Positions 1,930 to 60,399 of a stretch of DNA of 64,000 nt are shown here, piece by piece (within the stretch, counting starts at the first letter, position 1; the number at the start of each line of letters is the position of its first letter). Origin of the DNA: Gemmatimonadaceae bacterium (GTDB taxonomy: Bacteria; Gemmatimonadota; Gemmatimonadetes; Gemmatimonadales; Gemmatimonadaceae). The stretch covers positions 1 to 64,000 of the forward strand of contig JADZCT010000018.1 of the NCBI GenBank assembly GCA_020851455.1, written 5' to 3'. The notes beneath the pieces were generated by a model that saw only the letters and a list, made by a program, of their open reading frames with translations, did no database searches and was not told where the DNA came from. Both the position numbers and the translations under genes were made by a program.

Positions 1930-4900
1930 ATGGCAATTACCAACCAGGAACGCGTCGGCAAGGCAATGGAACTCCTGCGCGCGGGGCTGGCGCCCTTCGC
2001 CGAGCGCGAGTTCACGAGCCAGCACCACGCGCAGGCCGCCGATGCGGCGCGCCGCTACTTGGGCGACGACCGCACGGTCGCCAAGAAGCCGATCGCCGAG
2101 TGGGACGTGGCCGCGCTGCTCAAGCTGATGTGGGAGGCGTGGAACGAGATATTCGGCAAGACGCTCGGCCGCGCCGAGCGCTCGCTGGTGCAGGAACTGC
2201 GCGACGCGCGCAACAAGTGGGCGCATCAGGAGCCGTTCTCGAGCGACGACACCGATCGAGCGCTCGACTCGATGGCCCGACTCCTCACCGCCCTCTCGGC
2301 CCCGCAGGCGGACGAAGTCAACAAGATGAAACAAGAATTGCGCCGGCTGACGTTCGACGAGCAGGTGCGTAGCGAAAAGCGCAAGGCCGGCGGCTCGTTA
2401 ATCGAGGCCGCTGCGACCGGCACGCTCAAGCCTTGGCGCGAGATTGTCACACCCCACGCCGACGTGGAGAGCGGTCGCTACCAGCAGGCCGAGTTTGCCG
2501 CCGACCTCTGGCAGGTGCATTTGGGTGAAGGGTCGGACGAATACCGGAACCCCAAAGAATTCTTCCGTCGCACATATCTCACCGAGAGTCTCAAGGGCTT
2601 GCTCGTGGGTGGCGTGCAGCGCATTGCTGGAACCGGCGGCGATCCGGTGGTGCAGCTCCAGACCAACTTTGGCGGCGGCAAGACCCACTCGATGCTGGCG
2701 CTCTATCACATGTTCTCCGGGGCGAACGCGGGAGAGCTGGCGGGCGTAGACGCGGTGCTGGCCCAGGCGCGCGTGAAGAGCCTGCCTGGGGCGAAGCGCG
2801 TGGTGCTGGTGGGGAACAAGATCTCGCCGGGTAACCCGGTCACCAAGCCAGACGGTACCGTGGTGCGCACGCTCTGGGGCGAGCTGGCGTGGCAGCTTGG
2901 CGGCAAGAAGGCGTTCGCGCGGGTCAAGGCCGACGATGAAAAGGCCACGAACCCCGGCGACGTGCTGCGCGAGCTGTTCAAGGAGTACGGTCCGTGCTTG
3001 ATACTGATTGACGAATGGGTGGCCTACGCGCGGCAGCTTCATGAACAGAGCGACCTGCCGGCTGGCGGCTTCGAAACCCAGTTCACCTTCGCGCAGGCGC
3101 TCACGGAATCGGCCAAGCTGGCGGGCAACACGCTGCTCGTGATCTCGCTGCCGGCTTCGGACACCCAGGGCTCGCCGCACACGCAGGCCGACGACGCGGA
3201 GGTGGGCGGCATCCGCGGGCGCGAGGCGCTCGAGCGGCTGCGCAACGTGGTGGGCCGCGTGGAATCGTCGTGGCGACCGGCGACTGCGGAAGAAGGCTTC
3301 GAGATCGTCCGGCGGCGGCTGTTCGAGCCGCTGGCCGGCCCGGACTCCTTCAAGCAACGCGACGTGACCGCGCGCGCATTCGCGGACCTGTATCATGCAC
3401 AAAGCGCCGAGTTTCCGCCCGAGTGCAAGGGCGCCGAATACGAAAAGCGGATTAAGGCCGCTTACCCGATCCACCCCGAGATTTTCGACCGGCTCTACAC
3501 CGACTGGTCCACGCTGCTCAAGTTCCAGCGCACGCGCGGCGTGTTGCGGCTGATGGCGGCAGTGATCCACAGCTTGTGGGAAAAGGGAGACCGCAATCCT
3601 CTGATCCTGCCTTCCACGGTGCCGATTGACGATTCGCGCGTGCAGTCCGAGCTCACGCGGTATCTCTCGGACAACTGGGCGCCAATCATCGAGAAGGACG
3701 TGGATGGGCCGAGCTCTCTGCCGCTCAAGATCGACAGCGAGCAGCCCAACCTCGGCAAGCTCCACGCAACGCGGCGCGTGGCACGCACCATCTACCTCGG
3801 TTCGGCGCCCACGACGGCGGCCGCGCACCGCGGGCTCGAGGACCGACGCGTGAAGCTCGGCTGCGTGATGCCCGGCGAGACGCCGGCGGTGTTTGGCGAT
3901 GCGCTGCGGCGGCTCGCGGCGGCGGCGACCTACCTCTATCAGGACGGCCCGCGCTTCTGGTATGCCACCCAGCCGACCGTCACCAAACTTGCCGAAGATC
4001 GCGCCGAGCAGCTCAAGCGCGACCCGGACAAGGTGGCGCAGGAACTGGACGAGCGACTGCGCGGCGACCTGCGCAAGACGGGCGATTTCTCGCGCATCCA
4101 CCCGATGCCGCGCACCGGCGCCGACGTGCCGGATGACTTCGACACGAGGCTGGTGGTGTTGCCGGCGGAGCACGCGTACACGAAGGAGCCTGGTAGTGCG
4201 GCCGAGAATGCGGCGCGGGCGATCCTCGAGTCGCGCGGGAGCACGCCGCGCCTCTACCGCAACACGCTGGTCTTCCTTGCGGCGGACAAAGTGCGCCTGC
4301 AAGATCTGGATGAGGCGGTGCGCCGGTTCCTCGCGTGGCAGTCAATACTGGCCGAAAAGGAAACGCTCAACTTGGATCCGCACCAGGTGCGGCAGGCGGA
4401 GACGCAGAAGCGGGCGGCTGAAGGTGCAGTGACGGCGCTCTTGCCCGAGACGTACCAGTGGCTGCTCGTGCCGGAACAGGTGACGCCGGATGCCGCGGTG
4501 ACTTGGCGGGCGGTGCGCCTGTCGGGCGGCGACGCGCTCGCAGTACGCGCAAGCAAGAAGCTGCGAAGTGATGAGTCGCTGGTGATGGCGCTCGGCTCAA
4601 CTGTTCTCCGGAAGCATCTCGACGATGTACCGCTGTGGCGCGGCGACGACGTTGCAGTGAAGCAACTCGTGGAGGATTTCGCGCGGTACCTCTACCTGCC
4701 ACGGCTCGCCGGCCCCGAAGTGCTCGTTCAGGCCATTCGCGACGGCGTGGCCCTGCTCACATGGCGGTCCGATACGTTCGCGTACACCGAGGGTTATGAC
4801 GAAGGCGCGGCGCGGCACCGGGGGCTTCGCGGCGGACAGGTGGTATCGCTCTCGGCGGACAGTCCCGGAGTGTTGGTCAAGCCGGACGTGGCGCGGCGAC

Positions 4901-53201: not shown

Positions 53202-56200
53202 ATGGCACCAGTTGCTCGACGCGCGCGTGCCAAGAGCGCCGATACCATCCGGATCACCGTCGTCGGCCGATGCGAAGTATTCATCGGCCGCAAGAAGGTG
53301 AGCTCGGCATCCGCCGTACTCTTCGGGCTGATGCTGTACCTGGGGCTTCGCCCGGGCCGATCGGCGGCGCGTGAGGAGCTGCTCGACCTGTTCTGGGACG
53401 GCGCGTCCGACCGGGCTCATCGCCACGCCCTGCGGCAGCTTCTGTACAGGATGCGGAACGAGGGCATTCCGGTCAAGATCAGCGAAGGGCATATCTCGCT
53501 TGATCCGGCCCGCGTTCACTCCGACCTCGCCGTCATGCTGGAGCCGGGGTGGGCCGACGCGGTGCGTGCGAGCGACCTGAGGCACCCCCATTCGCTCTTC
53601 GCCGGGTACAGGCACCCGTTTGGGAATGAGTTCACGGAGTGGATCGAGTCTCTCCGGGACGAGGCCTCGGCCGCGACCCGCACGGCGTGCGTGCGCCACA
53701 TCGCCAGCGGGCGCCGCGAGGGACGCTGGGCAGACGTCGAGGCCGTGGCACGCATCTGCGTGGACTGCGACCCCATGAACGAGTCGGCGCACACCGCGCT
53801 TGCGGAGGCGGTCGCAATGTCGGGGTCGAAGGTGGACGCAATCCGTGGCCTCGACGCGTTCCTCTGGGACGTCGGTAACGTCAGCGAGGGGCTGGGCCGG
53901 GAAGCGCGGGCGCTCCGCCAGCGCATCTCCGCGCTTCCGGACTTCCGCCTGCTGCGAATGGGCGAGCCGCCGCTCGTCGGGCGGGCGGCGGAGATCGCCT
54001 GGCTGAACGAAAGGGCGGAGGAGGCCCTGAGCGGCTCACCCGTCCACGCCTTTCTCATCGGCGCCCCGGGGATCGGCAAGACGGCAATTGCCCGCGCCTT
54101 CATGTCGGCCGCGGAGATGCGTGGCTGGCAATGCCTCAGGGTCAACCTCGAGCCCAGCGACGCCGGCCATCCAACCAGCCTCTTGATGGAGCTGATCCAA
54201 CGCCTTCTCGCGGCGCGCGGGTCCATCGGAGCAGCGCCCGAGAGCCTCGCGCAGCTTCGGCGGCTGATCGAGCACCGCAGAGAGGACGACGACATCCTCG
54301 CCGGGCTCTCGCAGGAAGCCGAGGCAGTCAAGGCGCGCATCAGGTCATCCCTGGCCGACGTCACCGGCGCCGTGGCCGACGAAACGCCCCTCGTGCTGGT
54401 GCTCGAGGATCTGCACTGGGTAGACGAGTCATCCCTGGCGATGATCGGATGGCTCGCGCAGCACGGCGGCGACGAGCGCATCCTCTGGGTATTGACGGCG
54501 CGGCCCGAGCTGCGGTACGCGGCTGTTCGGGAACTCTTCCCGGCCGACAGGATTCCCTCCCTCGTCGTCAATCCGCTGGACGAGGTGGAGTCGCGCGAGC
54601 TGTTCATGGCCTTCGCGCCAACGCTCAGCGCAAAGCCGGAGGCAGCCGATGCCGCTTATGCCGTGACGGGTGGAAATCCGCTGTTCATCCGCGAGATGGC
54701 CGGCCTCGTGGCGATGACCGGACGCACGGTGAATCTCCCGCAGACGCTGCAGGCGCTCATGACGGCGCGGGTCGCCCGGCTCACGGCCCCCGCGCAGCGG
54801 CTGCTCGACTGCTGTGCGGTGCTAGGCAGGCACGCGACGATGCCGCGCGTGATAGATGTCATCGAGATGGGGACGGCCGAGTTGCTTACGGCTACTGATG
54901 AACTGGACCGCATCGGTCTCGTCGGATTGAGCGGCGAGCCCGGGTCGCTTGCGCTGCACGACCTGTGGCAGGAGCAGATCACAAAGGCGATGCGGCCCGG
55001 CGTCCGCTCGTTCATGAACCTTCGCGCCGGGCTCGTGCTCGAAGCGGAGGCGCGGAACAACAAGGCCTCAGCACTAGTCCTGGCCGCCGCTTCCCACCTG
55101 GTAGCCGGTGGCGCCCGGGACAGGGCGATAGACCTCCTGGAGCTGGCCGTAACCGAACAGCTTCGCGTTGGACTGTACGATGACGCCGTGGAGTGCGCAG
55201 AGAAGGCGCTCGGACTCGAGCCGGCAGTGGAGCGGCAGCTCGAGTTCGCAATGATGCGCCTGCAGGCGCTGCAGAGTCTCGGCCGCTGGCGTACGATACA
55301 CGAGTCTGTCCCCGTCGTGGAGAAGATCGCCGAAAGCTGCGGGAAACCCTTGGGTGGCCACACGGATTTCGAGCTGCTGGCGATCGAGGCGGAGATGCTC
55401 GACGGCCTCGATTTCGAGCGTACCACCACTAGGCTGGTCGAGTGCGTCGACAATACCGCATCCGACACCCGGCATCGGGCGGACGCGGCTCGGCTCGGTG
55501 CCCGGGCTGCAGCAAACTGTTTCATGGCCGAACGCCTTGCCTCTTTTGCCGCTAGCGTGGCGGCGCTTGACCAGACCGATGATCACGTGCGCGCGCAGAC
55601 TCTGGCAGTGGAAGTCATCTACAACACCGACGTCGGTAGCCTTTCCGTTGCATCCGACACTGCGACCGCGTTAGTCGCAGTCGAGCGCTCCCGGCGGAGC
55701 GTGGCCGACCTCATCCGTTCGCTACGATACCGGAGTATCCCGCTGCGGGCGCTCGCTGAGTACACCGCCGCCTTTGACTCCGTGCACGAGGCGTACAGGC
55801 TGGCGCTCACGCATCGGCTTGCTGAGGAGATCGCAATCGGCGCCGATATCCTCGGCAACATAATGTTTGAGTCAGGACAGCTCGCCCACGCTACTCATTG
55901 GCTCATGGAAGCCGAACGCGTCGTGTCGCACATTGGGTCAGGATACACCCGGGCGAGCGTGAACTGTGGCTTAGCCATGATTGCAATCGAAGAGGGCGAT
56001 TCAGTGCGGGCTGCGACGCTCATGGATGCAATCCCAACCCAGCAAGCAGGGCCGCGGCCGACGCGGGCGACGCTTGCTGAGTTAGCCGTCAGGTTGCGTA
56101 TCGCCGTGGCCGAGAGCGACCGGAAGGAAACAGGACGCCTTTCGGAACACCTCGCCAACGTGGTGAACCAGGTTAGAGGGTTCGGGCGCTTAGGGTACGC

Positions 56201-56333
56201 AGTTGCGTCGCTCGCAATAGCGGCGGAGTGGATCGACTCTCGTGAGGTAGCGCGGATGCTTGTCTCCGACTACCGCAGTACGATGAATCCCAAGGAAGTG
56301 CTGTGGCGGGAGTTGACCGCTCGATTTTGCTAA
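53202..56333 (+). CDS. SARP-type (BTAD) transcriptional regulator with AAA ATPase and TPR-like domains
   Basis: A 1043-residue regulator. Residues about 15-110 form an OmpR-like winged helix (IRITVVGRCEVFIGRKKV, GLRPGRSAAREELLDLFWDG). Residues about 110-230 form the BTAD helical domain. An AAA-16/STAND ATPase follows, with Walker A GAPGIGKT (287-294) and Walker B LVLVLEDLHWVDESS. The last 450 residues are TPR-like helices. Such proteins activate genes, often in secondary metabolism, in response to ATP and an unknown signal. GGTGGTGAG precedes ATG 53202. The final quarter looks richer in A/T than the first half. It converges with the HD-GYP gene across 22 bp. Confidence 0.85.
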   Translation: MAPVARRARAKSADTIRITVVGRCEVFIGRKKVSSASAVLFGLMLYLGLRPGRSAAREELLDLFWDGASDRAHRHALRQLLYRMRNEGIPVKISEGHISLDPARVHSDLAVMLEPGWADAVRASDLRHPHSLFAGYRHPFGNEFTEWIESLRDEASAATRTACVRHIASGRREGRWADVEAVARICVDCDPMNESAHTALAEAVAMSGSKVDAIRGLDAFLWDVGNVSEGLGREARALRQRISALPDFRLLRMGEPPLVGRAAEIAWLNERAEEALSGSPVHAFLIGAPGIGKTAIARAFMSAAEMRGWQCLRVNLEPSDAGHPTSLLMELIQRLLAARGSIGAAPESLAQLRRLIEHRREDDDILAGLSQEAEAVKARIRSSLADVTGAVADETPLVLVLEDLHWVDESSLAMIGWLAQHGGDERILWVLTARPELRYAAVRELFPADRIPSLVVNPLDEVESRELFMAFAPTLSAKPEAADAAYAVTGGNPLFIREMAGLVAMTGRTVNLPQTLQALMTARVARLTAPAQRLLDCCAVLGRHATMPRVIDVIEMGTAELLTATDELDRIGLVGLSGEPGSLALHDLWQEQITKAMRPGVRSFMNLRAGLVLEAEARNNKASALVLAAASHLVAGGARDRAIDLLELAVTEQLRVGLYDDAVECAEKALGLEPAVERQLEFAMMRLQALQSLGRWRTIHESVPVVEKIAESCGKPLGGHTDFELLAIEAEMLDGLDFERTTTRLVECVDNTASDTRHRADAARLGARAAANCFMAERLASFAASVAALDQTDDHVRAQTLAVEVIYNTDVGSLSVASDTATALVAVERSRRSVADLIRSLRYRSIPLRALAEYTAAFDSVHEAYRLALTHRLAEEIAIGADILGNIMFESGQLAHATHWLMEAERVVSHIGSGYTRASVNCGLAMIAIEEGDSVRAATLMDAIPTQQAGPRPTRATLAELAVRLRIAVAESDRKETGRLSEHLANVVNQVRGFGRLGYAVASLAIAAEWIDSREVARMLVSDYRSTMNPKEVLWRELTARFC

Positions 56334-56355
56334 CCTGTGATCATCTGAGCATCAA

Positions 56356-57702
56356 CTACGTTCGCACAAGATCACGAGTGGGCTGGGGGTGTTTCGTTAC
56401 GGCCGCCGCGCCGCTCGCAAACGTCTCGCCGTGGTGAGCACCAAGCACAGCGCTCTCGATTCGCCCCCACTCGGACGCGGTGGTCAGCGTCCGGACAAGC
56501 GACGGATCGAATTGCCGCCCGCTCTTAGCGACTATTTCAGCGCGCACTTCATCGAGTGTCAACGCGCGACGATAGGGGCGGTCAGTTGTCATTGCATCGA
56601 TTGTGTCCGCTATGGCGATAATGCGTGCCCAGACAGGGATCGCCTCGCCACGCAATCGATCAGGGTACCCGGATCCATCCCACGCTTCATGATGAGCGCG
56701 TATCGGCGCAACAATATCTGCTAGCTGTGATACCTTAGCTACGAGCTGTGCCCCTTTCCCCGCATGTCCCTTCATCGCCTCGTACTCATCTTCCGTCAAC
56801 CGTGCCGGCTTTCGGAGCACAACGGCAAACTCCTCGTGAATCTTGCCGACATCATGAAGAAGCGCTGTTGTGCGTACCCGTTGCGTCGCGCGCGCGCCAA
56901 GGCCAACAGTACTCGCAATCAGCTCAGAATACTCCGCAACACGCTGGGAGTGGCCGGAGGTATAAGGGTCGCGCGCCTCGATGGCCGCAACCATGAGCTG
57001 CAAGAGCTCTTCATTGACCGTCTGAAGCTCGCGATTCGCCTTATATACGAGTCGTAGGCCAAACAATGGAATAAGGAGCGCGCCGCTCCACGCCCAACCG
57101 ATGCGGACATACGCGTAGGCAAACCCGAGAACCAGCGGGATCCCCACTAAGTCGTAAACGATTGATGCGCCACCCAGAACGCGGAACAGGACATCTGAGA
57201 GCGGTTCTCTTGTATTCGTCGAGATGACGCCGGCAAAAAGGACGGCGTTACAAACGACGAAGGTGGCAAACGCCACAACAAAGGGGCCCAGATCAGACAC
57301 CCAGGTCCCAGCAGACAGCGGTGCCCCGCCAGACGCGAAGTAGGCAAGCGATGCCAATCCTACTCCCGCGGTCAACTGCGACGTATTGAACAGCGCTCGA
57401 ATCGGCGCATTCTTTCGGAGATACTCCGCAACACCCATCGCGATCGCGGTGCCCGTCACGATCGGCAATGCAGGAACCACCGCCACACCCGCGAGCAGCG
57501 GAATGAACATAATATCGCCGAAACCACCCCTCGGCAGCCGATAGGCCATCACGTGGGCTACGCATCCGGCAAGCGAGAAGAACACTGCTGCTTCTACTTG
57601 GTCGCGCGATGCAGGCGGGAGCAGCAGCGCCGCCGCAGCGAACGCCGCAGCAGCCAACGCCACGGTGCCGCCAACGAAGTATCGAGTGCGCGCTTCGGTC
57701 AT
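56356..57702 (-). CDS. Membrane HD-GYP phosphodiesterase
   Basis: A 448-residue protein. Residues 1-215 hold seven to eight membrane helices. A short linker (YKANRELQTVNEELLQLM) leads to an HD-GYP domain with LLHDVGKIHEEF and IRAHHEAWDGSGYPDRLRGE, so the metal-binding His-Asp pair is intact. HD-GYP enzymes degrade cyclic di-GMP or related dinucleotides; the membrane part probably senses a small molecule. It begins 30 bp after the stop of an 18-residue micropeptide gene and probably shares its transcript. The GYP triad is kept as GYP. Confidence 0.85.
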   Translation of the reverse strand: MTEARTRYFVGGTVALAAAAFAAAALLLPPASRDQVEAAVFFSLAGCVAHVMAYRLPRGGFGDIMFIPLLAGVAVVPALPIVTGTAIAMGVAEYLRKNAPIRALFNTSQLTAGVGLASLAYFASGGAPLSAGTWVSDLGPFVVAFATFVVCNAVLFAGVISTNTREPLSDVLFRVLGGASIVYDLVGIPLVLGFAYAYVRIGWAWSGALLIPLFGLRLVYKANRELQTVNEELLQLMVAAIEARDPYTSGHSQRVAEYSELIASTVGLGARATQRVRTTALLHDVGKIHEEFAVVLRKPARLTEDEYEAMKGHAGKGAQLVAKVSQLADIVAPIRAHHEAWDGSGYPDRLRGEAIPVWARIIAIADTIDAMTTDRPYRRALTLDEVRAEIVAKSGRQFDPSLVRTLTTASEWGRIESAVLGAHHGETFASGAAAVTKHPQPTRDLVRT

Positions 57703-57732
57703 GACGTGAGGTGAAGAGCCCCCAACCCCGGC

Positions 57733-57789
57733 TTACCAGGTAACCGTGTCCCGCAACGCCGCGAAGAACGCAGCGAAGAAGTCGATCAT
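57733..57789 (-). CDS. Micropeptide MIDFFAAFFAALRDTVTW upstream of HD-GYP
   Basis: ATG 57789 to TAA 57735-57733 encodes 18 residues, MIDFFAAFFAALRDTVTW. The ATG is preceded by AGGGAGGTG (57797-57805) with 7 nt spacing, one of the strongest ribosome sites in the window. The peptide is aromatic and amphipathic, with Trp last. The HD-GYP membrane protein gene starts 30 bp downstream. It may be a signalling peptide sensed by that protein, a translational leader, or a membrane-active peptide. No homologue is known to me. Confidence 0.5.
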   Translation of the reverse strand: MIDFFAAFFAALRDTVTW

Positions 57790-57796
57790 CTCGCGT

Positions 57797-57805
57797 CACC
57801 TCCCT
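57797..57805 (-). promoter_or_regulatory. Strong ribosome binding site of the micropeptide
   Basis: On the minus strand AGGGAGGTG lies 7 nt before ATG 57789. It overlaps a GTGACGC heptamer (57799-57793) which, with GTCAAAG 11 bp upstream (57810-57804), weakly resembles the repeat pairs near the SARP gene. Confidence 0.6.
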
Positions 57806-57941
57806 TTGACAAAAAGTCACAGGCAGCGTCCGCCACCTGTGCTACAAAGTTCGGCTCCGCTCGGTCTGGCCTTGCCGCCCGCTGGTCTCCGCTCCACCGG
57901 AGTCGGGGGGCTGTCTTCTCCTCCTCTGTTCCAGGTTCGCC

Positions 57942-58673
57942 TTATGCCTTCACCGGCGCACTTGCCGCCGCACCCTCGATCCACCTGTTCGTTGCATCGA
58001 GCACGGCCAGTACCCCAGCCGTCTCCACGCTGTCCTTCACCGCGCAACTCCCGGTGAGCAAGGCGCCCTGCCGCTCGTGCCTCACGGTTACGCCCGCCAG
58101 CACGATCTCGTGGTCGAACGCGCCGACCACCCGCACGCCCTCGAGCGAAAACTGTCGCCCAGTCACCTCGCTCAACCCAACAGCCGCCAACGTCGCCTTG
58201 GCCGCAAGCTCCACGCGGCCCCTGTCGCCGTTCAGACCCTCGGCCTCCCCGACGAACTGCTGCTCCCCGCGGCGAAGCGTCACCCGGCACAGCATTCCCT
58301 TCGTCCGGCTGCCGCGCACCTCCACATCCTCGAAGTACAGCGCCCGCCCCACGCGCGCGGCCCGCACTATCGCCTTCTCCTCAACTGCCACTTCCAGCAC
58401 AGGAGGACGCCGCACGGTCGTCGCCACGCTCACCTTCCGGTGATCCACGCGCATCCCAAGGTGCGCCGCCAGCGCACTCTCCACGTTCCGTACCACCTGC
58501 TTCGGCTTGATCTCCCCGGTAACCAGGAGATGGATGCCCTCCACCCCGCCGCTGGCGTCAGCCAGGATCCTCGCCGAAACAACGCTCTCCAGCGTGCCCA
58601 GCAGATCCTCAGCCCGGGCCAACGGGAGCACCTGACCGGCTATCTGGCTGTGGCCATCTTGTTGAGGTATCAC
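57942..58673 (-). CDS. Uncharacterised 243-residue protein
   Basis: The product starts at GTG 58673 and has two parts. The first (about 20-110) contains SARILADASGGVEGIHLLVT then GEIKPKQVVRNVESALAAHL and DHRKVSV. The second (about 115-235) is alpha/beta with a repeated strand-helix pattern (RVELAAKATLAAVGLSE). I do not recognise a family, although the first part looks like a compact conserved domain. No signal peptide or membrane helix is seen. It lies between the sigma-54 activator and the micropeptide/HD-GYP genes, with its own -10-like element and two heptamer pairs upstream. It may be part of the same regulatory group. Confidence 0.65.
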   Translation of the reverse strand: MIPQQDGHSQIAGQVLPLARAEDLLGTLESVVSARILADASGGVEGIHLLVTGEIKPKQVVRNVESALAAHLGMRVDHRKVSVATTVRRPPVLEVAVEEKAIVRAARVGRALYFEDVEVRGSRTKGMLCRVTLRRGEQQFVGEAEGLNGDRGRVELAAKATLAAVGLSEVTGRQFSLEGVRVVGAFDHEIVLAGVTVRHERQGALLTGSCAVKDSVETAGVLAVLDATNRWIEGAAASAPVKA

Positions 58674-58709
58674 GGCGGTGGCTGCCTCAGCACAGGTTCT
58701 CTCGCCCAG

Positions 58710-58715
58710 ATTGTA
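58710..58715 (-). promoter_or_regulatory. -10 element of the uncharacterised gene
   Basis: On the minus strand TACAAT lies 36 nt before GTG 58673. TTGACGC (58729-58723) lies 7 nt upstream of it. This fits an activator-dependent promoter where a heptamer replaces the -35 hexamer. Confidence 0.4.
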
Positions 58716-58763
58716 GCATTAAGCGTCAAGAAACGCTACAGGGGTGGCCGAAATCGGTGGTGT

Positions 58764-58827
58764 GTGACGCTTATGTGACGCGCCCGGGCAGATCAAGACC
58801 CGCAGCCACATGACGCCTAAGTGACGC
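58764..58827 (+). repeat. Two heptamer pairs upstream of the uncharacterised gene
   Basis: GTGACGC-TTAT-GTGACGC (58764-58781) and ATGACGC-CTAA-GTGACGC (58810-58827) repeat the layout before the SARP gene: identical heptamers with 4-nt spacers and an 11-bp period. They sit about 50-110 bp upstream of the -10 element of the minus-strand gene and just after the end of the sigma-54 activator gene. Confidence 0.55.
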
Positions 58828-58839
58828 TTCCGGAAACGA

Positions 58840-60399
<1,560 letters not shown>

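Follow-up and report, generated by a model that had tools for sequence, protein, structure and literature searches.

Arrest leader peptides such as TnaC and SpeFL are tens of residues long at most, carry critical C-terminal residues and act at or near termination. In the translation attenuation systems toiL/topAI and ermB/ermC, a short upstream open reading frame (ORF) precedes a main gene whose ribosome-binding site (RBS) is occluded by RNA structure (PMC12121999), and in every member of the ilvB-II motif, which comes from comparative genomics, the regulated gene follows a short ORF for a peptide rich in branched-chain residues, and control is ascribed to transcription attenuation (PMC10272879). 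We analysed a stretch of 64,000 nucleotides (nt) from a Gemmatimonadaceae bacterium (the window; contig JADZCT010000018.1 of GenBank assembly GCA_020851455.1) in which a short ORF (sORF) is embedded in a structured RNA of about 220 nt just upstream of the gene for an HD-GYP membrane protein. The account that we favour, with somewhat better than even confidence and on comparative sequence evidence, is that this RNA acts in cis as a leader and, through a translated upstream ORF (uORF) within it, controls translation of the HD-GYP protein. All coordinates refer to the window, and the sORF, the RNA element, the HD-GYP gene and an upstream gene for a protein of 243 amino acids (aa) are all on the minus strand.

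The sORF (57733 to 57789) consists of 18 codons and a TAA stop and encodes the peptide MIDFFAAFFAALRDTVTW. Its ATG at 57789 follows the sequence GTCAAAGGGAGGTGACGCGAG (also given as AAAGGGAGGTGACGCGAG), its TAA ends at 57733, and exactly 30 nt separate this stop from the ATG of the HD-GYP gene at 57702. The predicted pairing of its Shine–Dalgarno sequence (SD) with the 3′ end of 16S ribosomal RNA amounts to -17.2 kcal/mol, which ranks first among the 735 minus-strand ATGs of the window; by the same prediction, only 0.6% of plus-strand ATGs reach -14. A preliminary description of this DNA had reported an 18-residue peptide with one of the strongest SDs in the window, 30 bp before the HD-GYP gene, and both observations stand. 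It had also proposed a search for short frames with strong ribosome sites before homologous HD-GYP genes, and this was positive: homologous short ORFs of 14–39 codons precede orthologous HD-GYP genes in 79 distinct sequences, with further examples in more distant families of the class. Frame-breaking changes in relatives, named there as contrary evidence, did not appear. The ORF before HD-GYP in relatives nearly always falls within this size range and has a very strong SD, usually GGGAGGTGACGC. Among the 79 sequences, the start codon is ATG in 69, GTG in 8 and TTG in 2, and the stops are TGA (28), TAA (26) and TAG (25). The short ORF thus lies upstream of and co-oriented with HD-GYP and is conserved in relatives, as a candidate uORF should be.

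Substitutions indicate that this frame is read. Across 14 independent pairs, the ratio of non-synonymous to synonymous change (pN/pS) was 0.35 for the sORF frame, compared with 1.17 and 1.64 for the shifted ones, and changes at the three codon positions numbered 47, 29 and 86, concentrated at third positions. From this comparison we conclude that the sORF is very probably translated and its peptide under selection. That a chance ORF happens to follow a strong SD-like stretch has a negligible probability: start, SD, frame, terminal Trp and the codon-like substitution pattern are conserved in the 79 distinct sequences, and nothing in favour of chance remains after the comparison. Conservation of the peptide is strongest at the C terminus, which lies close to the ribosome active site at termination. 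Trp is the last residue in 14 peptides and the penultimate residue in 60 (74 of 79 in total), and D, E or G stands four residues before it in most. The peptides are hydrophobic (mean grand average of hydropathy (GRAVY) +0.96, positive in 78 of 79) and amphipathic (helical-moment t = 6.8). Read-through or fusion between the sORF and HD-GYP was rejected because the spacings in relatives (28, 35 and 46 nt, among others) break the frame, which agrees across the 30 nt in the window. Attenuation by starvation for the Trp codon was rejected by argument only: the one UGG is the last or second-last codon, so that a ribosome stalled on it would sit almost at the normal termination position and the two states would be poorly discriminated.

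What the preliminary description overlooked is the structured RNA around the sORF, which masks its ribosome site and links it to the HD-GYP start. The whole element, as matched by the covariance model, spans 57699 to 57915 (158 bits; one match in the source genome). The alignment of relatives and minimum free energy (MFE) folding of the window copy (z = -2.0) gave the same layout, and the helices P1, P3 and P4 all appear when the window RNA is folded to its MFE without constraints. P1 pairs a CCCCCGACTCCGG-type sequence, located 5′ of everything else, with the spacer that separates the sORF stop from the start of HD-GYP; in the window, the 5′ strand CCCCCCGACTCCGG (57897 to 57910) pairs with the 3′ strand CCGGGGTTGGGGGC (57718 to 57731), which carries the only SD-like G-tract of HD-GYP. 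A basal extension of P1, seen in close relatives, pairs GAGGAGGAGAAG (57915 to 57926) with CTCTTCACCTC (57708 to 57718) in the MFE fold and ends 5 nt before the HD-GYP ATG. P3 pairs GCGGAGCCAACCT with AGGGAGGTGACGC, the SD of the sORF, around two tandem purine mismatches. Its 5′ strand in the window is the anti-SD GCGGAGCCGAACTTTG (57845 to 57860), with tandem G-A mismatches and a nearly invariant AGCGGAGC, and its 3′ strand CAAAGGGAGGTGACGC (57793 to 57808) includes the SD. Several off-consensus SD variants that lose GACGC re-pair in P3 through GAG/CUC. The variable hairpin P4 (CACAGGTGGCGGACGCTGCCTGTG; 57818 to 57841) supplies the top covarying column pairs (for example, A-U 28 and G-C 21), and the P2 region GGTGGAGCGGAGACCAGCGGG (57878 to 57898) is a conserved motif with putative pairing as a GC-GNA-GC mini-hairpin.

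Comparison of duplex energies between strands of the same sequence and strands of different species supports P1 and P3. For P1, own pairs had a mean of -31.1 kcal/mol versus -22.9 across species, the best of 10,000 permutations reaching -25.0, and for P3 the values were -16.2, -15.2 and -15.7, respectively; the sequences are related by descent, so these permutation tests overstate independence. A free RNAduplex run on P1 was uninformative, with pairs spreading into adjacent sequence, and in the 73-sequence alignment misaligned columns limited RNAalifold to parts of P1 and P4. The comparative evidence thus argues for the folding of P1, P3 and P4 and for the predicted pairing of P3 with the SD and of P1 with the spacer. 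In most members, the G-rich tract able to serve HD-GYP falls in the P1 3′ strand; P1 covers both this tract and the spacer, a structure able to mask the downstream ribosome site. Across members, the SD binding energy is -16.6 ± 0.8 kcal/mol for the sORF versus -6.6 ± 3.2 for the HD-GYP start region; HD-GYP itself mostly starts 22–46 nt past the sORF stop. Taken with the P3 and P1 pairings, these energies point to an sORF that initiates strongly when P3 lets it and to an HD-GYP gene that initiates weakly behind the mask of P1. In the window, P4 and a following U-run, which is present in this genus, resemble an intrinsic terminator upstream of the sORF (57841 to 57811), as also in some close relatives, and it is possible that they add transcription control there. 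Termination as the general mechanism was rejected, the U-run being absent from many relatives.

The masking of the SD by P3 would also suit a leader that works as a riboswitch, as a thermosensor or by binding a protein. Sensing would then fall to the conserved RNA domain, with its GNA mini-hairpins and the tandem G-A pairs of P3, and the sORF would be no more than a first cistron that acts as a translational relay. The motifs AGCGAAGC, AGCGGAGCCAACC and GGGAGGTGACGC are better conserved than the body of the peptide, and the product of the neighbouring gene probably handles a second messenger. We regard this account as unlikely: it leaves the conserved peptide sequence and the terminal Trp unexplained, and no Rfam match names a ligand. 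The Rfam 15 covariance models gave no match up to E 1 in window positions 56000 to 59000, and a second comparison with Rfam yielded nothing beyond a Pxr match below threshold, which is on the opposite strand and does not fall in the RNA element; on these grounds a known riboswitch (GEMM/cyclic di-GMP or other) was rejected. In the part of the literature covered on MASE9, Gemmatimonadetes RNA motifs and HD-GYP leader peptides, nothing on this element was found. The RNA and the peptide family are new; the mechanism itself falls within uORF/leader control.

Of 298 Gemmatimonadota genomes, 101 have the RNA element by the covariance model (R1), with essentially a single match in each; most of the genomes compared are metagenome assemblies. 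A multicopy repeat or mobile RNA was rejected on this count. Second matches in a few genomes were mostly partial and at contig edges, and L148 has two tandem matches (4434 to 4858), apparently a tandem partial copy. The succession of the 243-aa gene, RNA/sORF and HD-GYP is kept across the taxonomic order, and the RNA with HD-GYP downstream and strong P1 pairing occurs in other families of the class as well (G107, G153 and G240), where the sORF peptides are MFEALMDAFGAAMAHMMGIIAW, MQLWALIALLAGKLDW and MNWLFMLLGGTVRW. Contigs tend to break off in the RNA or shortly past it: of 80 contigs (L074–L153), 17 stop no more than 500 nt downstream of the 243-aa gene and a further 16 over the following 3,000 nt, compared with a single one in the 500 nt upstream of that gene. 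Either a GC-rich long inverted repeat breaks the assembly or the region varies between strains. The whole Gemmatimonadota-type locus is also found in L146, a metagenome-assembled genome labelled Chthoniobacterales, which is probably a mislabelled or mixed bin.

This distribution bears on whether the transcript could be a type I toxin-like mRNA, encoding a small hydrophobic membrane peptide behind a masked SD, with long-range 5′/3′ pairing, an unseen antisense antitoxin and HD-GYP as a mere neighbour. Type I toxin loci are patchy and multicopy, and a conserved locus that is essentially single copy, found at the same place class-wide and co-inherited with two flanking genes, therefore argues against this. 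A scan for sigma-70-type promoters found no plus-strand promoter-like site over the RNA, although the promoters of the phylum may differ. Although the hydrophobic peptide, masked SD and 5′–3′ long-range pairing fit the layout of AapA mRNA (PMC6733600), and RNA and sORF are intact in a genome without a full HD-GYP gene, we consider a toxin very unlikely. In that genome (G008; L074, 4390 to 4700), an apparent internal deletion has cut HD-GYP to a 70-aa remnant (MKAGRTKIFVTAIATVALAII...).

Because the RNA masks the SD of the sORF and ties the sORF to the HD-GYP start, control of HD-GYP synthesis in cis is the simpler reading. With P3 and P1 formed, both the sORF and HD-GYP would be poorly translated. 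Once P3 is opened by a ligand, a protein, temperature or active translation, ribosomes would translate the whole sORF, run into the P1 3′ strand and disrupt P1, and HD-GYP would then be translated either through unmasking or by reinitiation 22–46 nt downstream. Conservation at the C terminus suggests a role for the nascent peptide in termination: its conserved hydrophobic body and Asp-x3-Trp end probably let it affect this step, with arrest on a signal as in TnaC or ErmCL. By this analogy the nascent peptide possibly arrests the ribosome at its Trp end, which is the least certain step, and we infer the direction of control and the signal as well as the arrest. Several points weigh against the leader. 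The shared descent of the sequences tempers the permutation tests; the distance from the sORF stop to the start of P1 is not fixed, so that any exact coupling geometry would be tentative; the peptide is more hydrophobic and amphipathic than pure coupling needs; and the intact RNA and sORF beside the HD-GYP remnant in G008 may reflect a separate function or a recent loss. As to the distance, we rejected a P1 that begins exactly at the sORF stop codon, as a relaxed test placed 38 of 84 within 4 nt, and the apparent exactness was partly an artefact of the strand having been cut there in the first test.

The downstream gene (56356 to 57702) encodes a membrane protein of 448 aa with a MASE9-like N-terminal membrane domain and an HD-GYP domain that, as first described, is intact (Pfam HD_5, E 7.5e-34). 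Across 33 homologues there is no variation in the catalytic columns, HD, H313, HHE and GYP among them, and the fold of the HD domain matches PA4781 (4r8z), DvhD (9rbz) and 4mcw with Z 24–25. The protein is a predicted phosphodiesterase that probably breaks down a cyclic-dinucleotide messenger. In place of the seven to eight membrane helices originally counted, the AlphaFold model has about six and a long stalk helix; the Pfam match to MASE9 is weak (E 9e-7). The best membrane fold matches of the membrane domain (residues 30–205) are energy-coupling factor S-components, namely FolT, BioY, RibU, ThiT and a NikM-type transporter, at Z 11–13, a range in which helical bundles may match through common arrangement (FolT 5d0y, Z 12.4, root-mean-square deviation 3.1 over 153 residues; BioY, RibU and ThiT, Z 11–12). 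The modelled likeness suggests a small-molecule-type membrane sensor and so does not specifically suggest a peptide receptor. In L190 (2687 to 4930; G220), the membrane domain runs into an N stretch, which may be masked sequence or a gap in the assembly, followed by a response-regulator/sigma-54 activator frame.

This domain is central to a second account, in which the peptide is a product that acts in trans: released or inserted into the membrane, it would bind or regulate the adjacent HD-GYP protein as a small subunit or an extracellular signal, and the RNA would set the peptide dose and couple peptide to receptor synthesis. This comes near the idea of the preliminary description, in which the membrane domain senses a peptide signal. 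Selection very probably acts on the peptide sequence, and its hydrophobic, amphipathic character and conserved D-x3-W end (D, E or G at W-4) would suit such a product role. The very strong SD of the sORF implies more peptide than enzyme, a short conserved precursor ORF nearly always adjoins the gene for a membrane sensor as candidate receptor, and the C-terminal Trp recalls the WW-type ComS/XIP pheromones (PMC5131902). Against this, most members lack N-terminal basic residues, some peptides (14–17 aa) are too short for a membrane span, no dedicated exporter, peptidase or modifying enzyme is found among the immediate neighbours in the window, the membrane domain is like small-molecule S-components, and the P1 link between the 5′ side and the HD-GYP start region is left unexplained. 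We therefore view action in trans as possible but doubtful. Its full form, that an excess of Trp-ended peptide of 14–39 residues from a structure-gated ORF acts on the S-component-like domain, as subunit or extracellular signal, and sets cyclic-dinucleotide levels phylum-wide, with the RNA coupling the doses of peptide and enzyme, is more doubtful still.

Upstream, the conserved gene that adjoins the RNA (57942 to 58673) encodes the 243-aa protein, which belongs to no Pfam or NCBIfam family; its model resembles a LeuA/citramalate-synthase regulatory domain (3f6h, Z 9.8) preceded by a cation-efflux C-terminal domain or a ferredoxin-like one. On the other side lies a convergent ORF for a BTAD/AAA-ATPase regulator of 1043 aa (53202 to 56333), with 22 nt between its end and that of the HD-GYP gene.

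In a major phylum of soil and water that has been little studied, the gene for a probable second-messenger enzyme thus follows a conserved, uncatalogued structured RNA with an overlooked, translated micropeptide. If the favoured leader holds, synthesis of the HD-GYP protein would depend on a peptide switch read by the ribosome, a layer of control for cyclic-dinucleotide enzymes of which we found no description in the part of the literature covered; if the peptide acts in trans, it would provide a peptide input into cyclic-dinucleotide signalling. Both yield concrete, cheap predictions, and an RNA family ready for covariance models, with its 79 peptides, is available for annotation.

Among known systems, ErmCL/ermC and toiL/topAI resemble the proposed leader in that the translation state of a short ORF alters an RBS-occluding structure. 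Here, in contrast, a conserved helix hides the SD of the short ORF as well, the ORF lies entirely within a long-range stem, and the target is an HD-GYP membrane protein with no known antibiotic link. With TnaC and SpeFL the sORF shares a length of tens of residues at most and the weight of its C-terminal residues, arrest being proposed here by analogy only; it differs in sequence, in the equal use of TGA, TAA and TAG stops and in having no known sensed metabolite. Unlike ilvB-II, the peptide is not built on the codons of one amino acid, and a U-run follows P4 only in some close relatives. AapA and Hok likewise combine a small hydrophobic peptide, a masked SD and long-distance 5′–3′ pairing (PMC6733600), whereas this locus is conserved, near-single-copy and tied to HD-GYP, with no known antitoxin RNA. 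ComS/XIP is similar in being the product of a very short ORF with a C-terminal Trp (PMC5131902); here there is no ComR/Rgg-type regulator at the locus, a single Trp is last or penultimate, and the neighbour is a membrane HD-GYP protein.
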